Shown here piece after piece: positions 2,400 through 26,079 of a stretch of 26,652 nucleotides of DNA. Numbering within the stretch: the first letter of the stretch is position 1; each line of letters begins with the position of its first letter. Origin of the DNA: a virus. The stretch lies in IMG/VR virus record IMGVR_UViG_3300047408_000213, positions 1 to 26,652 of that record; one strand, written 5' to 3'. The translations under genes and the position numbers were made by a program. The notes under the pieces were generated by a model. That model did no database searches. It saw nothing but the letters and a program-made list of their open reading frames with translations, and was not told the DNA's origin.

Positions 2400-3074
2400 T
2401 TACCGGCCGACGAAACGACGCTTGAACCGTCGAGCACCGAACATCAGTCCAGTTCCGAGGAGCACAAGGCTCGTTGGTTCTGGGACTGCTGAGATTTGTG
2501 CATCAGCTGTGCCTGTGAACGACGCATTGAAGGAGCCAATGGTCGTGTGCGACACCCCGCCGACCAGATACGTGTCGGTGTGGAACGGCGGGGTTACGTT
2601 ACTAAGCGACAGAGAGAAGCTCTCCGGGTCGATTAGTGCTGCCAGGTCACTCGTTAGCACCAGAGGACCGAGCAGCCCGTTGTTGCTCGTCAGGACTGAG
2701 TTGGTCCCACCGATCGTTCCAAGTTGCAGTGAGCCACCGAATGTCCCATCGAGGTAATCGAAGGTATCGGCTGCGTTGTGCAGGGAGAACGACCCAGCGA
2801 ACGGCTGTGCAATCAGCGGACCGAACGCCTGAGCATCGCCGGTGCTCGTCGCGTTCAGAGTCAGCACCGCGTTCGCATCGAGCGCACCCATGAAGATCTG
2901 GGTGATGTTGACGCCAGTGTTGATGCTGATGGCCGTGGTTCCGTTGCCAAGGTCGGTGGCAACGAACTGGTTCGTCGCTGTGTTCCCGAACGAGGTGATG
3001 GTCGTCGCCTTCGCCGCTGGAACTACGAGCAGAGCAAGGCTGAGGAGCAGGGGAAGAACTCGGGCTGGTTTCAT
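2400..3074 (-). CDS. PEP-CTERM sorting-domain secreted protein (224 aa)
   Basis: MKPARVLPLLLSLALLVVPA is a Sec signal peptide ending before AKATT. The C-terminus has VPEPTSLVLLGTGLMF followed by GARRFKRRFVGR: PEP motif, hydrophobic helix and strongly basic tail. The mature body is Thr/Ser/Asn/Leu-rich, with many predicted beta-like alternations (ITSFGNTATNQFVATDLGNG) and no cysteines. This composition is typical of exosortase substrates, which are often glycosylated surface or matrix proteins. A TAGGAG ribosome site precedes the ATG. It is not an obvious duplicate of the neighbouring PEP-CTERM protein: the bodies differ and only the sorting signals match in plan. Its role is unknown. Superinfection control or alteration of the host surface are inferences. 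Confidence 0.85.
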   Translation of the reverse strand: MKPARVLPLLLSLALLVVPAAKATTITSFGNTATNQFVATDLGNGTTAISINTGVNITQIFMGALDANAVLTLNATSTGDAQAFGPLIAQPFAGSFSLHNAADTFDYLDGTFGGSLQLGTIGGTNSVLTSNNGLLGPLVLTSDLAALIDPESFSLSLSNVTPPFHTDTYLVGGVSHTTIGSFNASFTGTADAQISAVPEPTSLVLLGTGLMFGARRFKRRFVGR

Positions 3075-8319: not shown

Positions 8320-8579
8320 TGTCAAAGATTCGATACGCACCACGGATGGCCGATGGTCAGACTGTAGCTTACAGACTACTCGACATCCTCCAGCACATCG
8401 CGCCCGACGGGGAAGCGCAGAAGGTGTGCACCGACCTGCACAACAGCTACAATCGTGGTCGAGAGCAGGATGAGGTGATGGCCCGAGCGCTGGCCGATGG
8501 CTTTCTCTACGGGAACTGGCCTTGGGTCATCGCAGCAATGAACAAGGAAGCAAAGGCTCGACTGGGCGAGGGTAAATAG
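8319..8579 (+). CDS. Hypothetical protein, 86 aa
   Basis: The start is the ATG in the TGATG overlap with the zinc-ribbon gene, with GGAG 7 nt upstream; the longer frame back to 8163 is a shadow of that gene. The protein is helical with YRLLDILQHIAPDGEAQKVC, NSYNRGREQDEVMARALADG and FLYGNWPWVIAAMNKEAKAR. No motif is recognised. It ends the first coupled group of small genes. Confidence 0.65.
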   Translation: MSKIRYAPRMADGQTVAYRLLDILQHIAPDGEAQKVCTDLHNSYNRGREQDEVMARALADGFLYGNWPWVIAAMNKEAKARLGEGK

Positions 8580-8661
8580 GCGTTAGGCCCAGTGCGGCGC
8601 GGCGCTCGAAACATCAGGGTGCCGCGAGTCGTGCAGCACTAAATCAAGCTGCAAAGGAGAG

Positions 8662-8859
8662 ATGATGGGACAGAACGACGTAAGACCATGCCCCTGCAAG
8701 TCAGGCAAGCCATCGCAGTGGATGTTCGATTGCAAGGGAATCGCGCTCGACCGAGTATGCGAGGACTGTGAGGACACCAAGAGGGCGAAATACAATCCGA
8801 TGGTGTTCACCGGATACACGCAGGCGGACGTCGATGAGCAGATTGAGGAGGATTACTAA
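8662..8859 (+). CDS. Small Cys-rich phage protein, 65 aa
   Basis: The N-terminus has RPCPCKSGKPSQWMFDCKGI, followed by RVCEDCEDTKRAKYNP: two cysteine pairs separated by about 22 residues, then an acidic tail. Proteins with this C-P-C-x-S-G-K-P-S start and C-x-D-C-E-x-x-K pair are common small phage/plasmid proteins of unknown role, with a likely metal site. AAGGAG lies only 2 nt before the first ATG and 5 nt before the second (8665), so the second may be the real start. Its stop overlaps the next start (TAATG). Confidence 0.75.
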   Translation: MMGQNDVRPCPCKSGKPSQWMFDCKGIALDRVCEDCEDTKRAKYNPMVFTGYTQADVDEQIEEDY

Positions 8860-16843: not shown

Positions 16844-18151
16844 ATGAAGATACTCGTCGAGAACATAGTGAACAACATCCCGGTTACGTGGGATGACGAG
16901 AAGGAGCGAGACGAATTCCTCGAATCGCTCAAGGAGCAAGGGCAGCTTCACGCAATCATCGTTCGTCAGATGATGGAAGAGAACGAGTTCAACCACGCGA
17001 TGTATCAGGTTGTCACTGGAGCCAAGCGATACGAAGCAGCCAAGCTCTTGGGATGGACCGAGATTGATGCCGAGGTCAAGAACCCTACGGATATCGATGC
17101 CAAGATTATGCGGGTGCATGAGAACCTCCACCGGCACAATCTTCCGTGGTATGAATCTGTCATTCTGGTCCAGCAGCTGCATGAACTTCGCCAGGAGCAG
17201 TTCGGAAAGAAGGAAGGCGTCGGCCGTCCGAAGAAAGACGAGAAGGTATGGGGCGTTCGTGAGACGGCATCGGAGCTGAGTCTCTCCATCGGAGGAGTCT
17301 CGGAAGACCTTGCGTTGGCGAAGGCTGTCATCTACGACCCATCACTGAAGAACATCAAGGACCGCAAGACTGCCATCAAGCTGGTCAGGTCAGCAGCGCG
17401 CCGCATGCAGAACGAGACTGTCGCTGCGATGGGAGACATCACCATCACTGCCGACGAGGTCTATCTCGGAGAGAGCGCAGAGATTCTGGAGCGCATTCCC
17501 GAAGAGACATTCGACGCCTGCATTACCGACCCGCCCTGGCTGAACTTCTACGACCCCGCACTCACCGTGGACAAGAGGACACTTCCAGTCTTCGAGCAAC
17601 TCTATCGAGTACTCAAGACGGATGCGTTTCTCTATCTGTTCGTCTCAGTCGATGACTTCGTTTACTATGGGGGCTACGACTATCTGGACGACAAGGGTGA
17701 GAAGTCCCATCGTCGCGGCGCGCTGGAGAAGCTTGGGTTTCGAGTAGCTAAGACTCCAATCTTTTGGAAGAAGGAGAACAGCCTCTCTCGTCGAGGCGTC
17801 AAGACCTGGGAATACGACCGCGACTTCGAGACGATTCTCGTAGCAGCGAAGGGGTCACCAGTTCTTGCCCGTGTCGGCAATCTCTCTGCCTTCAAGAGCT
17901 TTCCTCAGGTTCCACCAGTCCACATGATTCACCCGAATGAAAAGCCAAGTGTGCTCATTCAGGACATCATCGAGGACTGCACCTTCAAGGGCGCATTTAT
18001 CGTGGACCCATTCGGAGGTTCCGGTGTCACCGCTGCGTCCTGCATCAAGACCGAGCGCAAGTTCATCACCATCGAACGGGACAAGAAGTTTTTCGACGGC
18101 ATCGTTGACCGACTCGCAAAGGTCCGAACCGACAAGGAGAAGTCAGCATGA
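16844..18151 (+). CDS. ParB-domain DNA methyltransferase fusion, 435 aa
   Basis: Two parts are visible. Residues 1-100 are a ParB/Srx-type domain (FLESLKEQGQLHAIIVRQ, VVTGAKRYEAAKLLGW, with G-A-K-R for the usual G-E-R-R, and AKIMRVHENLHRHNLPWYES). An HTH-like linker with TASELSLSIGGVSEDLALAK follows (about 141-160). From residue 200 comes a beta-class amino-methyltransferase: DACITDPPWLNFY (catalytic DPPW, 229-232), HPNEKP (363-368) and VDPFGGSGVTAASCI (SAM-binding motif I, 387-401). DPPW with C-terminal FGGSG is typical of N6-adenine or N4-cytosine methylases. ParB-MTase fusions are known in phages and are thought to modify phage DNA against host restriction. GGAG precedes the ATG. Confidence 0.9.
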   Translation: MKILVENIVNNIPVTWDDEKERDEFLESLKEQGQLHAIIVRQMMEENEFNHAMYQVVTGAKRYEAAKLLGWTEIDAEVKNPTDIDAKIMRVHENLHRHNLPWYESVILVQQLHELRQEQFGKKEGVGRPKKDEKVWGVRETASELSLSIGGVSEDLALAKAVIYDPSLKNIKDRKTAIKLVRSAARRMQNETVAAMGDITITADEVYLGESAEILERIPEETFDACITDPPWLNFYDPALTVDKRTLPVFEQLYRVLKTDAFLYLFVSVDDFVYYGGYDYLDDKGEKSHRRGALEKLGFRVAKTPIFWKKENSLSRRGVKTWEYDRDFETILVAAKGSPVLARVGNLSAFKSFPQVPPVHMIHPNEKPSVLIQDIIEDCTFKGAFIVDPFGGSGVTAASCIKTERKFITIERDKKFFDGIVDRLAKVRTDKEKSA

Positions 18152-18318: not shown

Positions 18319-18512
18319 CCGAGAAGCCAAAGCAGGGATTCGCAACGATGTCTCCGGAGCGGCAGCGTGAGTTGGCATCCAAGGGTGGCCGGACCGTGCA
18401 TGAGAGGGGACTTGGCCATCAGTGGACCAGCGAAGAGGCCAAGGAGATGGGTCGAATCGGTGGACGTATCACAGCAGAGCGCCGCAAGAGGTTGAAGGAG
18501 AGTCAGGCATGA
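18315..18512 (+). CDS. KGG-repeat stress-type protein, 65 aa (GTG start)
   Basis: The GTG overlaps the previous stop (GTGA). Residues 8-50 hold two diverged copies of a S/A-x-x-x-x-x-x-K/R-G-G unit: MSPERQRELASKGGRTVHER, then GHQWTSEEAKEMGRIGGRIT. Such KGG or con-10-like repeats occur in hydrophilic bacterial stress proteins and in many phage proteins of unknown role. The C-terminus is basic (ERRKRLKESQA). Coupled by ATGA to the next gene. Confidence 0.7.
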   Translation: MTEKPKQGFATMSPERQRELASKGGRTVHERGLGHQWTSEEAKEMGRIGGRITAERRKRLKESQA

Positions 18513-19138
18513 AACTCTACGTCTCAGGCTCATACGCACACAAGAGCAAGATTCAGGAGCTGGTCGATTTCCTCCTGATTAACGTCTCTGGCATCGAAAT
18601 CACCAGCAGGTGGCTTTCTCTGCCCGAGGAACTGAGCGAGAGCGACAAGGGATTCGACCATCAGTTCTACATCAACGAGGATGTCGAGGATGTTGACCGC
18701 TGTGATGCGGTGGTGCTCATCAACACTACCGACCTCAGCACTACATCTCCAGGCAAATGGATTGAGCTGGGCTACGCGCTCGGACAGGGCAAGCTCGCCA
18801 TCGTCTGGGGCGGCGCGCAGACCTCGCTGTTCCTGCATGACCAGAACGTCGTCTGGCTCCGCAACGATGACTGGTCTGCGCTGGTCCTCGCGCTCCTCGC
18901 TGTAAGAGCAACACTCAACTCACTGGACTTGGAGGGCACAGGTGCAAATCGAACGAACGCGGGAAGAGGACCGGGAAGAGATCGAGAAGGAGCTCCGCCG
19001 AATAACGCTCAAGATCGAGGTGAAGCTCTCCGTCAAGGAATACTCCAGCGAGAAGGTCGCACACTATCTGACCTTGATAGAGCGATTGGAGACAGAGCTT
19101 CGCGAACTGGAGGCCTCGCGGACCCGACTCGAGGCTAG
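18509..19138 (+). CDS. Nucleoside 2-deoxyribosyltransferase-like protein with overprinted tail, 209 aa
   Basis: The ATG at 18509 overlaps the previous stop. Residues 1-140 match the nucleoside 2-deoxyribosyltransferase-like fold: MKLYVSGSYAHKSKI at the start, DVEDVDRCDAVVLINTTD in the middle, and GKWIELGYALGQGKLAIVWG, with a Glu in W-x-E-L-G where the family keeps its catalytic Glu. Such enzymes exchange or cleave bases on deoxynucleosides; phages use them to alter nucleotide pools. The last 65 residues (RTNAGRGPGRDREGAPPNNA onward) are Gly/Arg-rich and overlap the next gene in another frame, so the ancestral stop was probably lost. Confidence 0.75.
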   Translation: MKLYVSGSYAHKSKIQELVDFLLINVSGIEITSRWLSLPEELSESDKGFDHQFYINEDVEDVDRCDAVVLINTTDLSTTSPGKWIELGYALGQGKLAIVWGGAQTSLFLHDQNVVWLRNDDWSALVLALLAVRATLNSLDLEGTGANRTNAGRGPGRDREGAPPNNAQDRGEALRQGILQREGRTLSDLDRAIGDRASRTGGLADPTRG

Positions 19139-19173: not shown

Positions 19174-21699
19174 ATGTCCAATTACGTCCCAGGTGAGGGA
19201 CCGGGTGACGCTGACTTCGCTATAGTCGGTGAAGCACCCGGTGCCCACGAGGACCGAATCGGCAAGCCATTCGTCGGCCCAACCGGCGACATGCTTGAGG
19301 AGATGCTCTCCGAGATTGGAGTGCATAGGTCCGAGGTCTATCTATCCAACGTCGTCAAGTATCAGCCACCAGGAAACGACATCAAGAAGCTAGAGATGAT
19401 AGGTATCAAACTTGATGCCTGCATCAGTGACCTGTGGATAGAACTTGGCGCAATCAAACCCAACTGCATTCTCGCGCTTGGCAATACAGCGCTGCGAGCA
19501 CTCACTGGGAAAGATGGAATCCAGAAGTGGCGTGGCTCAGTAATACTTGGTAAGGACGCCAAGACGAAGGTAGTTGGAACCATACATCCTGCAGCTCTAC
19601 TCCACAGCGAAGGAGAGGGTCAGGGTGGTGCAATGAGCTGGTCGGCGCGGGTCTATATCGTCCATGATATGCGCCGCGCACTGGAGCATAGCAAGTATCC
19701 AGACTACAGACCACCCAGGAGGCGTCTTGAAATCATACGGTCGGCGGTTTCTCTCGCACGTTTCTTCGAGTTCTATCGGGGTCACGATACGCTGTCTGTT
19801 GACATCGAGGTATTGCGTGCTATCCCTGTCTGCATCGGCCTCTCGTTCCACCCCAACCACGGAGTGTCCATACCGCTCCTCGACGTGTTTTCTCTCCAGA
19901 ATAAGGAAGGTATCCACAGGCATGAACTCGCCCAGATGTGGCGTATTCTTGCAGCCCACCTTGCACGACCAGACCTCAAGGTCATTGGACAAAACTTCAA
20001 GTTCGACCACGAGAAACTAGAGCGGCCTTGCGGGTTCCGTATTGGTAACGTCCGTGCCGACTTGATGCTCATGATGCACACGTTGTATCCAGAGCTACCC
20101 AAGTCGTTAGGCTTCTCGACAAGTATCTACACTGAGGAACCATACTACAAGGACGAAGGTAAAGACTTCAACTTCGCAAAGCAGAAGATAGATGACCTCC
20201 TCACGTATAACGCGCGCGACGCAGCAGTCACACTTGAGGCTGCAAAGAAGTGTCTTGCAGAGGCACGATCGGTCGAGGTCAATGGATTCCCCAACTGGTT
20301 CGACACTTTTTATTTCGGTTTTGTTAATCGTCTCCATTACTTCTATAAGGACATGGAGCGAGTCGGTCTGCCGATTAACAAGGCGAAACGTGCCAAGCTG
20401 GTTGCGGAATACACAGCAAAGGTAGCTGCTGCTGAGAAGTTGATGAATGAGATAGCTGGCTTCGAGCTGAACGTGAACTCTCCGAAGGCCGTAGCTATCT
20501 TCCTCTACAAAGAGCTGAAGTTCCCTGAGCGTGGCGAGTGGGTTATCGGCAAGAATGGTAATCGTTACTTCAAGTATCACACAGATGAAGAAACGATTAT
20601 CGCTCTAGCAGCTAATCATGCTAAGAAGGATGCTAGGAAACGTTCGGCGTGTGAACAAATCCTCGCTACCCGCCGACTGAGAAAAGCTCTCGGAACCTAC
20701 TTCCTCGCGGTGCCAGATTTCGATGGGAGAATGAGAACGTCCTATCGAATTGCCGGTGCTGAGACAGGCCGCACTAGCACATCCCTCCTCAAACCACCAG
20801 TCCGACCGTCAATCGAGGTGAAGATTGGCAAAAAGAAAAAGAAGCGTAATATCGGTCTCGCCTTCCAAACACTCACCAAGTTCGGAGACGGAGCAGAAGT
20901 CCGTGAAATCTTCGAAGCCAACGATGATGAGGAGTTTGTTGAAATCGACCAGTCCCAAGCCGAAGCGCGAGTTGTGGCTCTCCTCGGAAGAGATGAAGCT
21001 ACTCTCGCAATGTTTGGCCGAGTGGATATACATAAGCTCACGGCGTCGTGGATATTTGGTATCCCGCCTGACAAGGTTAATAAAGAGCTTCGGTTTATCG
21101 GAAAAACTACGCGCCACGCTGGGAACTATGGGATGCGGAAACGTCGTCTTATGTTTCTCGTTAATACGGATGCCAAGCGTTACGGCATTGACATTGAGAT
21201 TTCCGAATGGAGGGCTGGTGAGATTCTTGACAAGTTCCACCAGTTCAACCCGTCCATCCGTGAAGTCTTCCACTACGAGGTCGAGCAAGCCCTCCTAAAC
21301 AACATGATGACGCTGGTGAACCCATTCGGTCGCCGTCGTCAGTTCCTGGGCCGGTGGAATGACGAGCTATTGCGTGAGGCCTTCGCGCAGATTCCACAGA
21401 GCACCGTCGCTGACCAAACTAAGAAGGCTGGATTGGAGATTGTGGACAAGATTCCAGACGCGAAGAACTGGATTTGTCTCGAAGCACATGACGCTCTACT
21501 CGCATTAGTCCCGAAGGCGCGCAGAGCCGAGTATCTCAAGGTGGCGATTCCGGCGTTTGAGCGTTCAATTGACTTTACGTGGTGCACGTTGTCGCGTGGT
21601 TCACTCACGATACCGTGCGAGGTCAAAGTAGGGGCAAACTATGGCGCACTAGAGGAGTTGGACATTAAGGGTTTCAGGGATGCCGAACGGGTGGCTTGA
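19174..21699 (+). CDS. polA: Uracil-DNA glycosylase / family A DNA polymerase fusion, 841 aa
   Basis: Three domains. (1) Residues about 8-170 are a family 4/5 UDG-like domain: VGEAPGAHEDRIGKPFVGPT (18-37) and HPAALL (138-143); the N-terminal C-x2-C of Fe-S family 4 UDGs is absent. (2) About 195-365 is a 3'-5' exonuclease: D210-x-E212 (SVDIEV), GQNFKFD (N274, D278), and YNARD (Y345, D349), all intact. (3) About 380-835 is a family A polymerase: motif A VEIDQSQAEARVV (589-601, D592), motif B RFIGKTTRHAGNYG (640-653; R640, K644, Y652) and motif C EAHDALL (770-776), with H-D-A in place of the usual H-D-E. A Lys-rich insertion (KIGKKKKKR) lies before motif A. It is the phage replicase. The UDG part may proofread or exploit uracil. 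The ribosome site is weak. Confidence 0.9.
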   Translation: MSNYVPGEGPGDADFAIVGEAPGAHEDRIGKPFVGPTGDMLEEMLSEIGVHRSEVYLSNVVKYQPPGNDIKKLEMIGIKLDACISDLWIELGAIKPNCILALGNTALRALTGKDGIQKWRGSVILGKDAKTKVVGTIHPAALLHSEGEGQGGAMSWSARVYIVHDMRRALEHSKYPDYRPPRRRLEIIRSAVSLARFFEFYRGHDTLSVDIEVLRAIPVCIGLSFHPNHGVSIPLLDVFSLQNKEGIHRHELAQMWRILAAHLARPDLKVIGQNFKFDHEKLERPCGFRIGNVRADLMLMMHTLYPELPKSLGFSTSIYTEEPYYKDEGKDFNFAKQKIDDLLTYNARDAAVTLEAAKKCLAEARSVEVNGFPNWFDTFYFGFVNRLHYFYKDMERVGLPINKAKRAKLVAEYTAKVAAAEKLMNEIAGFELNVNSPKAVAIFLYKELKFPERGEWVIGKNGNRYFKYHTDEETIIALAANHAKKDARKRSACEQILATRRLRKALGTYFLAVPDFDGRMRTSYRIAGAETGRTSTSLLKPPVRPSIEVKIGKKKKKRNIGLAFQTLTKFGDGAEVREIFEANDDEEFVEIDQSQAEARVVALLGRDEATLAMFGRVDIHKLTASWIFGIPPDKVNKELRFIGKTTRHAGNYGMRKRRLMFLVNTDAKRYGIDIEISEWRAGEILDKFHQFNPSIREVFHYEVEQALLNNMMTLVNPFGRRRQFLGRWNDELLREAFAQIPQSTVADQTKKAGLEIVDKIPDAKNWICLEAHDALLALVPKARRAEYLKVAIPAFERSIDFTWCTLSRGSLTIPCEVKVGANYGALEELDIKGFRDAERVA

Positions 21700-22867
21700 C
21701 AAGGTGTTAGAATACTCCAAGGAATCAGAAAGTCCAAGCCAGTATTTCTACTGGGCTGGCCTTGCTGCACTCGCTGGAGTCGTTCGTAACAAGGTCTACC
21801 TTGACAAGTTCTATTACAAGCTCTACCCGAACCTCTACATCCTGTTGATTGGAAAGTCGGGCATCAGGAAGGGTATTCCGGTTGCGCTTGCAAAGGAGCT
21901 TGTTAATGGAGCAAAGGTAACGCGAGTCATCTCGGGTAGAGCGTCGATTCAGAAAGTGATTAGTGAATTAGCAACAGCCCACTCTACACCGGGAGGACTA
22001 CCGATACTCGATGCCATTGGCTACTTCAGTAGTTCGGAGTTCGCCTCGTTTATCATACAAGATCAGCAGGCTCTCACAATCCTGACGGACCTGTATGATG
22101 GCCATTACCACGCTGATGGCTGGGCGAACATGACGAAAGTCAGTGGCAACGAAAAGCTCAAGAACATCTGCCTGACACTATTCGGCGCGAGCAACGAGGT
22201 CCACTTTAAGGAAGCGGTTCCGGATAACGCTCTCGGTGGTGGATTCATAGCGCGCACCGTCATTGTCTACGCAGACAAAAAGAATGGAGTCAACTCTCTC
22301 ACGCACAGACCGAAGCAATCGTTGGACATCTTAGAGCTGTCCGACTACATCAACAAGGTCAAGCAAGTCGAGGGTGAGTTCACTTGGTCAGAGGATGGCC
22401 GTGACCTCTATGACAAGTGGTATACCGAGTTCAGTGGCGAGGTCAATAATGACGACACTGGCACGCTCGAACGGATACACGACACCGTTCTGAAGATAGC
22501 GATGCTGGTCTCTCTGTCTAGAAAGCTGGACTTGGTCTTAGAGAAGGAGGATATTGCCGAAGCCTTAGAACAGGCGCGGCGGACGGTTCCGGGACTCAAG
22601 CGATTGGTGATGGGTGCTGGTAAGAATCCTCTCGGTCCTCAGACTGCGATGGTTCTTAAAGAACTGTTGACCAGACCATCAACATTCTCTGCCTCCAAGT
22701 CTGAAATACTCACGAAGTATTGGGGGCACTTGGATAGTTACGACCTGGATAGGATTGCAGAGTCACTCCAACAGCAGAAAGCTATCAAGGTTTCGGAAGG
22801 TGGTGGGGACACCTACTACATACTGAATCCGAAGGTGGCTGAGAGCTTCTTCAAGGGGAAAAGCTAA
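21680..22867 (+). CDS. Primase/helicase-like ATPase (DUF3987-like), 395 aa
   Basis: Overlaps the polymerase end by 20 bases, with AGGG before the ATG. Residues 19-36 (PSQYFYWAGLAALAGVVR) and 48-65 (LYPNLYILLIGKSGIRKG) match the start of the DUF3987 / phage primase-helicase ATPase region. Here the P-loop G-K-S-G-I-R-K-G carries Gly where Ser/Thr is normal. SSSEFASF (about 116-123) and the SGE region follow the family outline. The remainder is helical with a winged-helix-like C-terminal domain (TKYWGHLDSYDLDRIAESLQ). The position beside PolA supports a replisome helicase or loader role. Exact activity is not established by eye. Confidence 0.7.
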   Translation: MPNGWLDKVLEYSKESESPSQYFYWAGLAALAGVVRNKVYLDKFYYKLYPNLYILLIGKSGIRKGIPVALAKELVNGAKVTRVISGRASIQKVISELATAHSTPGGLPILDAIGYFSSSEFASFIIQDQQALTILTDLYDGHYHADGWANMTKVSGNEKLKNICLTLFGASNEVHFKEAVPDNALGGGFIARTVIVYADKKNGVNSLTHRPKQSLDILELSDYINKVKQVEGEFTWSEDGRDLYDKWYTEFSGEVNNDDTGTLERIHDTVLKIAMLVSLSRKLDLVLEKEDIAEALEQARRTVPGLKRLVMGAGKNPLGPQTAMVLKELLTRPSTFSASKSEILTKYWGHLDSYDLDRIAESLQQQKAIKVSEGGGDTYYILNPKVAESFFKGKS

Positions 22868-23094
22868 TGGTCTCAGATGACGAGTTGGTCAATCGGTTCA
22901 AGCACCACCCGCCGAGCACACCGGAGATTGCCAAGGCTCACGAGCAGATTCGTGATGGCTTCCTCGAGCAGGCGTTGGCCCTGAACGTCCTGCTCCCTGA
23001 GGGGCGAGACAAGGCACTGGCTTTCACCAAGCTCGAAGAAGCCATGTATCACTCGAACGCAGCCATCGCGAAGAACCAGAGAGTCGGCATGTAG
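22867..23094 (+). CDS. acb2: Acb2/Tad1-hairpin-like anti-CBASS/anti-Thoeris sponge, 75 aa
   Basis: Starts in a TAATG overlap. The sequence has VNRFKHHPPSTPEIAKAHEQ, GRDKALAFTKLEEAMYHSNA, then AIAKN. It follows the plan R-F-x-x-H-P-P near the start, R-(E/D)-K-A-L-A-(L/F)-T-K-L-E-E-A-M in the second helix and N-A-A-I-A-(R/K)-N at the end. This is the pattern of the Acb2-type phage family, small helical proteins that form oligomers and trap cyclic di- and trinucleotides made by CBASS (and, for some, Thoeris) defences. Length (75) and two-helix layout fit. It is the last gene of the early block. The family match is from memory of the motif and was not verified by search. Confidence 0.75.
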   Translation: MVSDDELVNRFKHHPPSTPEIAKAHEQIRDGFLEQALALNVLLPEGRDKALAFTKLEEAMYHSNAAIAKNQRVGM

Positions 23095-23101
23095 CGACTA
23101 G

Positions 23102-23133
23102 GCCGGGGGGTCTCATCGTTGGGACTCCTCGGC
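23102..23133. terminator. Stem-loop between convergent genes
   Basis: GCCGGGGGGTCTC (23102-23114) and GGACTCCTCGGC (23122-23133) can pair with two G-T wobbles in the 39 bp between the converging stops. Neither side has a long U-run, so it is a modest bidirectional terminator candidate. Confidence 0.5.
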
Positions 23134-26079
23134 TTACCTTCCAGAACGCCCCCTGCTGTGACCCCTTCCACCACTCGGGGCTGTCCCCTGCTCTATGCGC
23201 TTCTCTCGGGCAGCCTGTGCACCGAACCCGAGGTTGCTCCGCGCCCACCTACGTCCCGGTGAGTCCATGATAGCTCCGAACGGATCGGTAAGGGTCTTGG
23301 TGATGCCCCACTCCGGTATCGGAGATATGCCCTGCAGCGCTTTGCTACCCTGCACCAGCGACGCGCCAAACAGGAACGGAAGCGCGTAGGGACCAGCAAA
23401 AGCAGAGGCCAATGCTAGTCCCTCCTTATCCTTAATCTGAGACCCGGCGACAGCTCCTAGCGTCACAGCACCAACGTAGACTGCTGGATACTTCTTCCAG
23501 CGAGTGAGTCCCTGCTCGAACTGGTTTGACGCAATCGTCCTGAATGGGACCAGCACCTTTCCAAGCCGTGTATTGAGTGGCTTCCAGTTGGTAAGAGTAT
23601 TGGCATTGGTCAGCATTATCTCTCGTGCGTCGGTCTCGCTGATACCTGCACGCTTGAGAGACTCTACAGCAGCGTAGTCAGCTGCTCCCATCGCACGACC
23701 GGGAAGATTAAATCTACCTACCCCTCCAGTCTGCGCCGGATTCTGTCCACCCTTCCACCCACGCTTCAAGTCCCTCCCAATATTCTTGACCTGAGTGAGC
23801 ACCTTGAGAGGCTCGATTGTCCGATGCTCCAGTGCGGCAGTGAAGTGTGCTCCGAGGTTGCCAATCAGTGACTTGGGCAGTGCAAGACCAGAGAGCATCG
23901 ACGTCATTCTCAGCTGGTTGGCACCGTCGAACACTGCACCAGCACCCTTACCAAGCTGCTGCTTGCTCGGAAGCTTGAGTGCTCCTTTCTCAGAACCTCC
24001 GAGTTTGCTCAGCAGGTCTTGAACTCCAGACTTGAGCTTCTCGTGCTCGACTCCCCCGGTATCCTCTGAGATGAACCTCTGGAGTGCGGCCTTCAGTGCT
24101 CCGGGCTTGACTCCAGCATCAGCAGCGTGTTCAGCGAGAGCACCACTGTCGTGCATCAAGTTCTCGACTTCAGCGCCACTGTAGGTGCTAGTGAGTTCAT
24201 CTACTTTGGCCTGAACACGAGTCCCAACCTTGACACCCTTGACCGACGAGGCGACTGGCTGCTCACGTCCACCAGCCTCAGAAGCCAGTGCAGCAGGTGG
24301 AGGCTGTGTCGGTTCTGGCACCGCTCCCTTCTGCTTCAAGACTTCTTGCAACTGGCTCAGTGGGTCTGCTCCAGCTGCGACATCGGCCGTGGCTGCCGGG
24401 ACATCAGTGAGTTTCTTGCCCTTCCTGAGCCTTGGCTTGAGAGCCTTCTGAGACTCCAAGATGGCTGGTTCGTTCGGGACAGGCGGAGGCGACTGGACTG
24501 GAGCAGCAGTTTCACCCAATCGTGGTGCTACCATTTCGAGCGTATCGCTACCGGCCTCGGCAGTCTTGGGTAGAGCTTTCGCCATATCCATGACCTTGGC
24601 TCGATAGTCAACAGCTATCTTCACAGCTTCCTTCTCGCTGACTCCAAGCTGCCGTGCAAGGCTTGAGAAATCAGGCTTGATGCCTTTCACACCCTGAGTC
24701 ATCTTCCTCATTCTGCCCATAGCAGAGAAGAGGTCAGCGTGCAGCTTGTCGGGAAAGACAGTGCGAACCACGTCCCAATTGCCACGCGCGATACGAAGCA
24801 CTCGGTCGGGGGTTGGTTTGCCAGTGGGTTTCGGAACCACTGCTGGAACCTCTGCCACCGGAGCCGGAGCTGCCTCTACTGGTGGTGCCACGACTGGAGC
24901 CGCTGCAACAGGAGCTGGAGCTACTACTGGCGCTGGTTCTGGTGGTGGCACTACTGCTGCAGGTGCTTGCTGAGCTCTCCTACCTCGCCTGACTGGAGAC
25001 GGTGGTGCTTGAACAGGCGCGGCATTTGGGTCCACCAAGTCAGGAACAGGAGCCGGAGGCCGCTCTGGACCAAAGGGTGCTGGCTCAGGTCCAAACATCG
25101 CAGGTGGATTCTGTGGCACCCACTGCTCAGGATTGGCGATATCAGGGACTGGCCCTTCCATTGGGCCTACGTGCTGTGTGGCCCACTCTGGTGGAGCCTC
25201 CACAGGGGGAGCCTGACGAGCGTTCTGGAACCCCTGAACAAGCTGGCTGCCGACAGGATTCTCCGGCTGGTATGGTGTCTCTGGTGGCTGGATGTCTCCA
25301 AGAGCAGCAGGTTCACCCTGCAGACCCTCTACTGAGATTCTACCCTGCCCTGCAATGTCAGGCCCAGAGCTAACTATGTTTGGGTCAACGTAGTCAACCT
25401 TCGGAACCGGAATCTCTGCTTGCGGGAACATGCGAGTGTTCCGCGGTGCCCGAGCGACAGGTGGTGGAGGCGGCGCGTTTGGGTCGGTGACGTCCGGGAC
25501 AGGAGATTCACCACCGTGCATCATGGCTCCCAGACCAGCCATTGCAGTCAGACCACCAATCGATCGGGCAGCCTGATGAGGAGCGACTGGAGTGCCAGTG
25601 CCAGTCAGTCCATATCGGAGGGCATTGAAGGTATCAACTACGGGGTCGATTGGAATAGGCGACATTCCCTTCGCCTGATTCCAAGCTGGTGTCACGTAGT
25701 CAGGTGACTGGTCAGATGGCTGCATCGCTAGGTCCGACGCGTATTGGGAACCAGCGTCGATAGCCATCTGAGTCGGACTACTCACCATCATCTTGCCCAT
25801 ACCGAGAGCAGTCTCGCCGACTCCTTTGCCAAACTCTGCCAAGTCTCCAGCAGAGGTTGAGATGTCGCTGGCAGTTCTTGCAGCTTCATCCATTGCAAAG
25901 TCTTTACCAGCAGTCAGGGCACGAGCAAGACGTCCATTGTGCCCTAACCAAGATGACTTGTCTGCTTCCTGCTGCTGCTGGTAAGTAGCGATGTCGTCAG
26001 GCGTGGGAGGATTCGGACTTTCCCACGGCATAGTGAAGACTTCGCCAGTGCGCCGGTCGCGGATTCTACGAGGAGGCAT
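23134..26079 (-). CDS. Large ejection/internal virion-like protein, 981 aa
   Basis: GGGGAGGA precedes the ATG, which overlaps the upstream stop as TAATG. The N-terminus is basic and polar. Residues about 190-430 are Pro/Ala/Val-rich with runs such as PVVAPAPVAAAPVVAPPVEA, probably disordered. A helical middle follows (RGNWDVVRTVFPDKLHADLF, LARQLGVSEKEAVKIAVDYR). The C-terminal third has MTSMLSGLALPKSLIGNLGA, LVPFRTIASNQFEQGLTRWK and hydrophobic stretches at about 864-879 and 887-912, then a Gly/Arg tail. Size, low-complexity linker and membrane-active C-terminus fit internal virion (ejection) or large polyvalent proteins carried into the cell. No catalytic motif is seen. It is the last gene of the leftward block on this side. 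Confidence 0.7.
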   Translation of the reverse strand: MPPRRIRDRRTGEVFTMPWESPNPPTPDDIATYQQQQEADKSSWLGHNGRLARALTAGKDFAMDEAARTASDISTSAGDLAEFGKGVGETALGMGKMMVSSPTQMAIDAGSQYASDLAMQPSDQSPDYVTPAWNQAKGMSPIPIDPVVDTFNALRYGLTGTGTPVAPHQAARSIGGLTAMAGLGAMMHGGESPVPDVTDPNAPPPPPVARAPRNTRMFPQAEIPVPKVDYVDPNIVSSGPDIAGQGRISVEGLQGEPAALGDIQPPETPYQPENPVGSQLVQGFQNARQAPPVEAPPEWATQHVGPMEGPVPDIANPEQWVPQNPPAMFGPEPAPFGPERPPAPVPDLVDPNAAPVQAPPSPVRRGRRAQQAPAAVVPPPEPAPVVAPAPVAAAPVVAPPVEAAPAPVAEVPAVVPKPTGKPTPDRVLRIARGNWDVVRTVFPDKLHADLFSAMGRMRKMTQGVKGIKPDFSSLARQLGVSEKEAVKIAVDYRAKVMDMAKALPKTAEAGSDTLEMVAPRLGETAAPVQSPPPVPNEPAILESQKALKPRLRKGKKLTDVPAATADVAAGADPLSQLQEVLKQKGAVPEPTQPPPAALASEAGGREQPVASSVKGVKVGTRVQAKVDELTSTYSGAEVENLMHDSGALAEHAADAGVKPGALKAALQRFISEDTGGVEHEKLKSGVQDLLSKLGGSEKGALKLPSKQQLGKGAGAVFDGANQLRMTSMLSGLALPKSLIGNLGAHFTAALEHRTIEPLKVLTQVKNIGRDLKRGWKGGQNPAQTGGVGRFNLPGRAMGAADYAAVESLKRAGISETDAREIMLTNANTLTNWKPLNTRLGKVLVPFRTIASNQFEQGLTRWKKYPAVYVGAVTLGAVAGSQIKDKEGLALASAFAGPYALPFLFGASLVQGSKALQGISPIPEWGITKTLTDPFGAIMDSPGRRWARSNLGFGAQAAREKRIEQGTAPSGGRGHSRGRSGR

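Follow-up and report, generated by a model that had tools for sequence, protein, structure and literature searches.

A predicted Acb2-family counter-defence gene at the end of a tailed-phage replication operon

Acb2 has been described from phage T4 (Vs.4, PDB 7uq2) and from the Pseudomonas phages PaMx33, PaMx35 and PaMx43 (gp24), and the family reading used here follows the Acb2 papers PMC10419184 and PMC12043709. Function has been tested for T4 Acb2 and PaMx35 Acb2, and both match the Pfam model PF24729 (Acb2_Tad1_hairpin) across all 58 positions. T4 Acb2 contacts cGAMP through Y8, H11, K23, R79 and F82 and assembles through L29, A66, A73 and A77 (PMC10097602). A related hairpin forms the C-terminal part of Tad1 (Thoeris anti-defence 1; PDB 8kbe and 7uav). 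Tad1 is approximately 125-140 aa long and has an N-terminal beta-sheet domain which helps to form the gcADPR pocket. In profile comparison the hairpin spanned residues 45-121 of Tad1 chains of 123-138 aa. A further structure, PDB 9ptq ("Acb2 homolog 43"), comprises a protein of 76 aa with six chains deposited; no paper naming it was found in a literature search. An actinobacteriophage gene has already been named Acb2 in a 2026 genome note (PMC13348362).

The window analysed here is a stretch of 26,652 nucleotides, positions 1 to 26,652 of IMG/VR virus record IMGVR_UViG_3300047408_000213. The record encodes phage-type polymerase, primase, Sak4-like and ParB-methyltransferase genes and was counted as that of an uncultured tailed phage. 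When the replication region was searched against phages at the nucleotide level, no match was obtained. The acb2-like gene is located at 22867-23094 on the plus strand and has 75 codons, beginning with ATG and ending with TAG. The first-pass annotation had quoted three motifs in this ORF and a TAATG coupling to the primase/helicase-like gene upstream. The coordinates were exact and the motifs RFKHHPP (residues 10-16), GRDKALAFTKLEEAM (46-60) and NAAIAKN (64-70) were all present in the translation. The TAATG at 22865-22869 (plus strand) is a one-base overlap between the stop codon of the primase ORF (21680-22867) and the acb2-like start. In the relatives L007, L008 and L009 the start lies a few bases downstream of the primase stop. 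A purine-rich AAGGGGA at 22853-22859 (plus strand) is the likely ribosome-binding site, and AAGGGG is also found in L008 and L009. The frame was kept in four phage contigs with 55-60% protein identity, no internal stops and a dN/dS of less than 1 at a dS close to saturation. The frame at 22867-23094 is a real gene.

An Acb2 pattern had been read in the protein from its motifs and a profile search against the Acb2/Tad1 hairpin family proposed. As far as the hairpin domain goes, this reading was borne out. Residues 13-69 aligned to positions 2-58 of the 58 in PF24729 (E 2e-14), with a score of 53.9 bits, about double the curated gathering score of 27 bits. This was the sole match above the cut-off in Pfam-A, and the same model gave no match in 14 control genomes. 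NCBIfam held no model for the protein. Among the PHROGs the protein matched PHROG 1454, annotated as "unknown function", with an E value of 2e-24. PHROG 717, the T4 Vs.4 group, was not among its matches, while T4 Acb2 belongs to PHROG 717 and touched PHROG 1454 only weakly. Against solved structures the single sequence found PDB 9ptq (E 0.002). A profile of 60 sequences found the six chains of 9ptq at 3e-12, Tad1 at 5e-5 and T4 Vs.4 weakly at 0.08. Aligned with hhalign to PaMx35 Acb2 as a single sequence, the same profile gave no significant match; PaMx Acb2 is thus linked to the protein by their common Pfam model and by genomic position. The protein is placed in the Acb2 family about as securely as sequence allows and is an addition to a family already described and widespread.

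Likeness to the individual family members was partial. PDB 9ptq was the nearest solved sequence and shares the motif LPEGREKSxxxTKLEEAM, but differs at the N64 and R69 positions. T4 Acb2 shares the PF24729 hairpin, the TKLxEA helix and small residues at three of the four hexamer-interface positions but is only 22% identical, and its Y8, H11, R79 and F82 are not kept. PaMx Acb2 shares the hairpin and likewise has no extra domain. Unlike the window protein, PaMx35 Acb2 is 93 aa long, has a longer interhelix stretch, lacks TKLEEAM and is 17% identical over the alignment. The PHROG 1454 proteins of Mycobacterium, Gordonia and Streptomyces phages, such as Anthony gp44, belong to the same branch, with about 35-52% identity and the same invariant residues. 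They occupy other genome positions than the window gene and are annotated "hypothetical protein". Tad1 shares its hairpin with RE-x5-T-x2-EEA-x2-W-x-N. A Tad1 identity was rejected as the protein has 75 aa, an all-helical model and no N-terminal beta-sheet domain. The first-pass annotation had taken known members to block CBASS and some Thoeris signalling, and had further conjectured that the host lineage uses such defences; the Thoeris part applies to Tad1, whose beta domain the protein lacks. The AlphaFold model agreed with an Acb2 and not a Tad1 architecture.

That model, made as a single chain from the 60-sequence alignment, had a mean pLDDT of 91 with helices at residues 4-10, 19-42 and 47-70. 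The predicted monomer has the anatomy of Acb2 with high confidence, namely a short N-terminal helix and two long antiparallel helices (PMC12043709). A Foldseek search of the model against the PDB gave no significant match (Vs.4 appeared at E 8.6); helical hairpins this small are hard to tell apart. Of the T4 hexamer-interface positions, A66, A73 and A77 correspond to A52, A59 and S63, so that three small residues are kept, and the fourth, L29, corresponds to the polar Q35.

The gene stands last in a group headed by a family A DNA polymerase with an N-terminal uracil-DNA-glycosylase domain (19174-21699, plus strand). The end of the polymerase gene overlaps the start of the primase/helicase-like gene (21680-22867, plus strand), which has a DUF3987 domain, matches PHROG 14296 (DNA primase) and lies directly upstream of the acb2-like gene. 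Relatives of the uracil-DNA-glycosylase/polymerase fusion aligned along its whole length. On the far side is a convergent gene on the minus strand (23134-26079), ending about 40 bases from the acb2-like gene. It encodes a 981-aa protein with no family match which is presumed to be structural, given its position and the analogous ORF23 of PaMx35. A strong hairpin at 23098-23137 fills the space between the acb2-like and convergent genes. The 76-nt stretch 23085-23160 folds at -36.3 kcal/mol (z -2.9), and none of 200 shuffles was as stable. The hairpin has no T-run and was not listed by a consensus terminator scan; it is probably a two-way transcription terminator. The first annotation of the gene as closing the replication operon was thus upheld. 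The order polymerase, primase, acb2-like gene was the same in four virus contigs, followed by the convergent gene where similarity was detectable.

Two other genes upstream were observed. A ParB N-terminal domain fused to an N6/N4 DNA methyltransferase is encoded at 16844-18151 (plus strand), and relatives of this fusion are found close to the polymerase in distant phages, e.g. a Desulfofustis phage and Mel-JY34. The gene at 18509-19138 (plus strand) encodes a nucleoside 2-deoxyribosyltransferase-like protein (PF05014, 25.1 bits, just below the cut-off of 28.8). It is the operon's other fast-evolving gene, with 35-47% identity compared to 73-87% for its neighbors, and might serve a counter-defence related to nucleotide signals or NAD. 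In the relative L002 a small HNH-like ORF, judged by eye, lies between polymerase and primase (8512-8835, plus strand) and is possibly a homing endonuclease.

The founding acb2 genes occupy a similar place. In PaMx35 and PaMx43 the order is polymerase, primase, MazG, two small genes, acb2 (ORF24), annotated terminators and a convergent large structural gene. The primases are homologous, the window protein being 25% identical to that of PaMx35 (E 2e-14), and acb2 is again the last gene, tail to tail with the structural gene. No similarity was detectable between the 981-aa protein and PaMx35 ORF23, so synteny there is by position and not by sequence. This stretch, in which acb2 follows the MazG-like gene and the two small genes of unknown function, lies at 6064-8117 of L087 and 6096-8149 of L088 (minus strand). 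The MazG-like protein Atd1 has itself been reported as counter-defence (PMC10419184), and counter-defence genes may more generally be housed at the operon end. In seven other phages with related primases the slot held other small genes or none, and PF24729 was absent genome-wide. The slot is an accessory position holding an Acb2-family gene in two distant phage groups, which may have come by descent or by separate gain.

The gene changes faster than its neighbors. Protein identity between the window and its relatives was 81-85% for the polymerase, 82-87% for the primase and 55-59% for the acb2-like protein. Between L008 and L009 the respective values were 93, 96 and 57%, with dN of 0.047, 0.038 and 0.338. 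Such fast divergence relative to primase and polymerase is expected of an arms-race gene, and it fits either that or allele exchange. Purifying selection acts on the gene, which also diverges fast. In a tree, the four acb2-like proteins from this group of phages formed one clade with a local support of 0.72.

The preferred reading, to which we give a probability of about 0.82, is that the gene encodes an Acb2-family counter-defence protein acting as a hexameric cyclic-oligonucleotide sponge. To our knowledge, all characterised members of the PF24729 family are signal sponges. Judged by its sequence, the protein is most likely a stoichiometric sponge, and we infer hexamer formation, ligand binding and CBASS inhibition. 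It would probably be co-expressed with the polymerase and primase of the phage. Six chains would then pack into a compact hexamer like those of known family members and trap the cyclic oligonucleotide alarm molecules of the infected cell so that cell-killing effectors stay off. We would guess that the ligand is a cyclic trinucleotide, bound at the trimer ends of the hexamer. The pocket between head-to-head chains might take a cyclic dinucleotide or another signal, held by H14, R29 and K69, which would stand in for the Tyr/Lys/Arg/Phe set of T4 Acb2.

The ligand is where this reading meets its strongest rival, a sponge with a narrowed or shifted ligand. Such a protein would be restricted to binding cyclic trinucleotides at the trimer ends, or would take up some signal that is not a CBASS dinucleotide, the dinucleotide pocket having been rebuilt throughout the branch. 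The T4 contacts Y8, H11, K23, R79 and F82 map to H14, S17, R29, A65 and A68, and of the five only K23 is kept in kind, the change to R29 being conservative. Over 60 sequences of the PHROG 1454 branch the alteration was uniform, with H at the Y8 position in 59, R at the K23 position in 59, A at the R79 position in 57 and A at the F82 position in 59; the H11 position was variable. The branch as a whole appears from these residues to have a pocket unlike that of T4 Acb2. R47 and T54 were invariant (60/60 each), and the same spacing, Arg and Thr seven apart in the second helix (R-x6-T), is found in PaMx35 Acb2 (R67 and T74) and in the Tad1 hairpin. R67 of PaMx Acb2 is presumably needed for binding of cA3, a trinucleotide. 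T68 of T4 Acb2 corresponds to T54, and its change to M reduces binding (PMC12657230). PaMx35 Acb2 belongs to a group proven to bind cGAMP, but has Y11, L14, K26, R85 and A88 at the five positions. It therefore lacks equivalents of H11 and F82, and loss of those contacts alone is no proof of lost dinucleotide binding. It does keep the Tyr and the Arg, so the Tyr-to-His and Arg-to-Ala changes (H14 and A65 in the window protein) separate the branch from both T4 and PaMx35. R29, moreover, retains the charge of K23. A narrowed or shifted ligand is a tentative alternative, held at clearly less than even odds. The more specific proposal that the branch has a rebuilt inter-chain pocket (H14, R29, N64, R/K69) for an immune signal other than the dinucleotides of T4 and PaMx Acb2 is doubtful.

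A second rival concerns the window copy only, which might be a weak or failing sponge in which H62, and Q35 at the hexamer interface, reduce assembly. Position 62 is W in 58 of the 60 sequences and position 35 is hydrophobic in nearly all. The copy nevertheless has a full-length open frame, a likely ribosome-binding site and a confident model, and the relative L067 has Y at position 62, which together make a defective allele improbable. Reuse of the hairpin fold without a sponge function, e.g. in a regulatory or replication-associated phage protein, would suit a gene within a replication operon whose homologues adjoin thymidylate synthase (Anthony) or lie between portal and RNA ligase (a Gordonia phage), but is quite unlikely as these locations have only an accessory-slot character in common and in more distant relatives of this phage the slot is empty or taken by other small ORFs.

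The sponge reading bears on a large set of genes. Matches were found in 330 phage records, including 241 of Mycobacterium, 40 of Gordonia and 28 of Streptomyces phages, and in 117 confirmed stretches in IMG/VR. Among the matches listed, the phage homologues were mostly annotated "hypothetical protein". A search of genomes with the protein found more distant members in actinobacterial genomes only and was uninformative on the host of the window phage, and a host search based on the primase found no relative in 84,980 genomes. Two minus-strand ORFs (1423-2205 and 2403-3074) carry PEP-CTERM sorting signals (TIGR02595, 20.1 and 22.4 bits, cut-off 16). A matching PEP-CTERM tail ORF was found in all four close phage relatives, with likeness limited to the last ~30 residues. 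In this phage group the encoding of exosortase substrates looks to be conserved, and the host is probably a PEP-CTERM bacterium.

As it stands, the finding extends a described family in a predictable way. It offers a guess at function for a type of gene in over 300 cultured phages, mostly called "hypothetical", and places an Acb2-family gene in the replication-operon-end slot of the founding acb2 phages in a distant phage group as well. Were the branch-wide change of the pocket to reflect a different ligand, these phages would indicate an immune signal that is common among their hosts.
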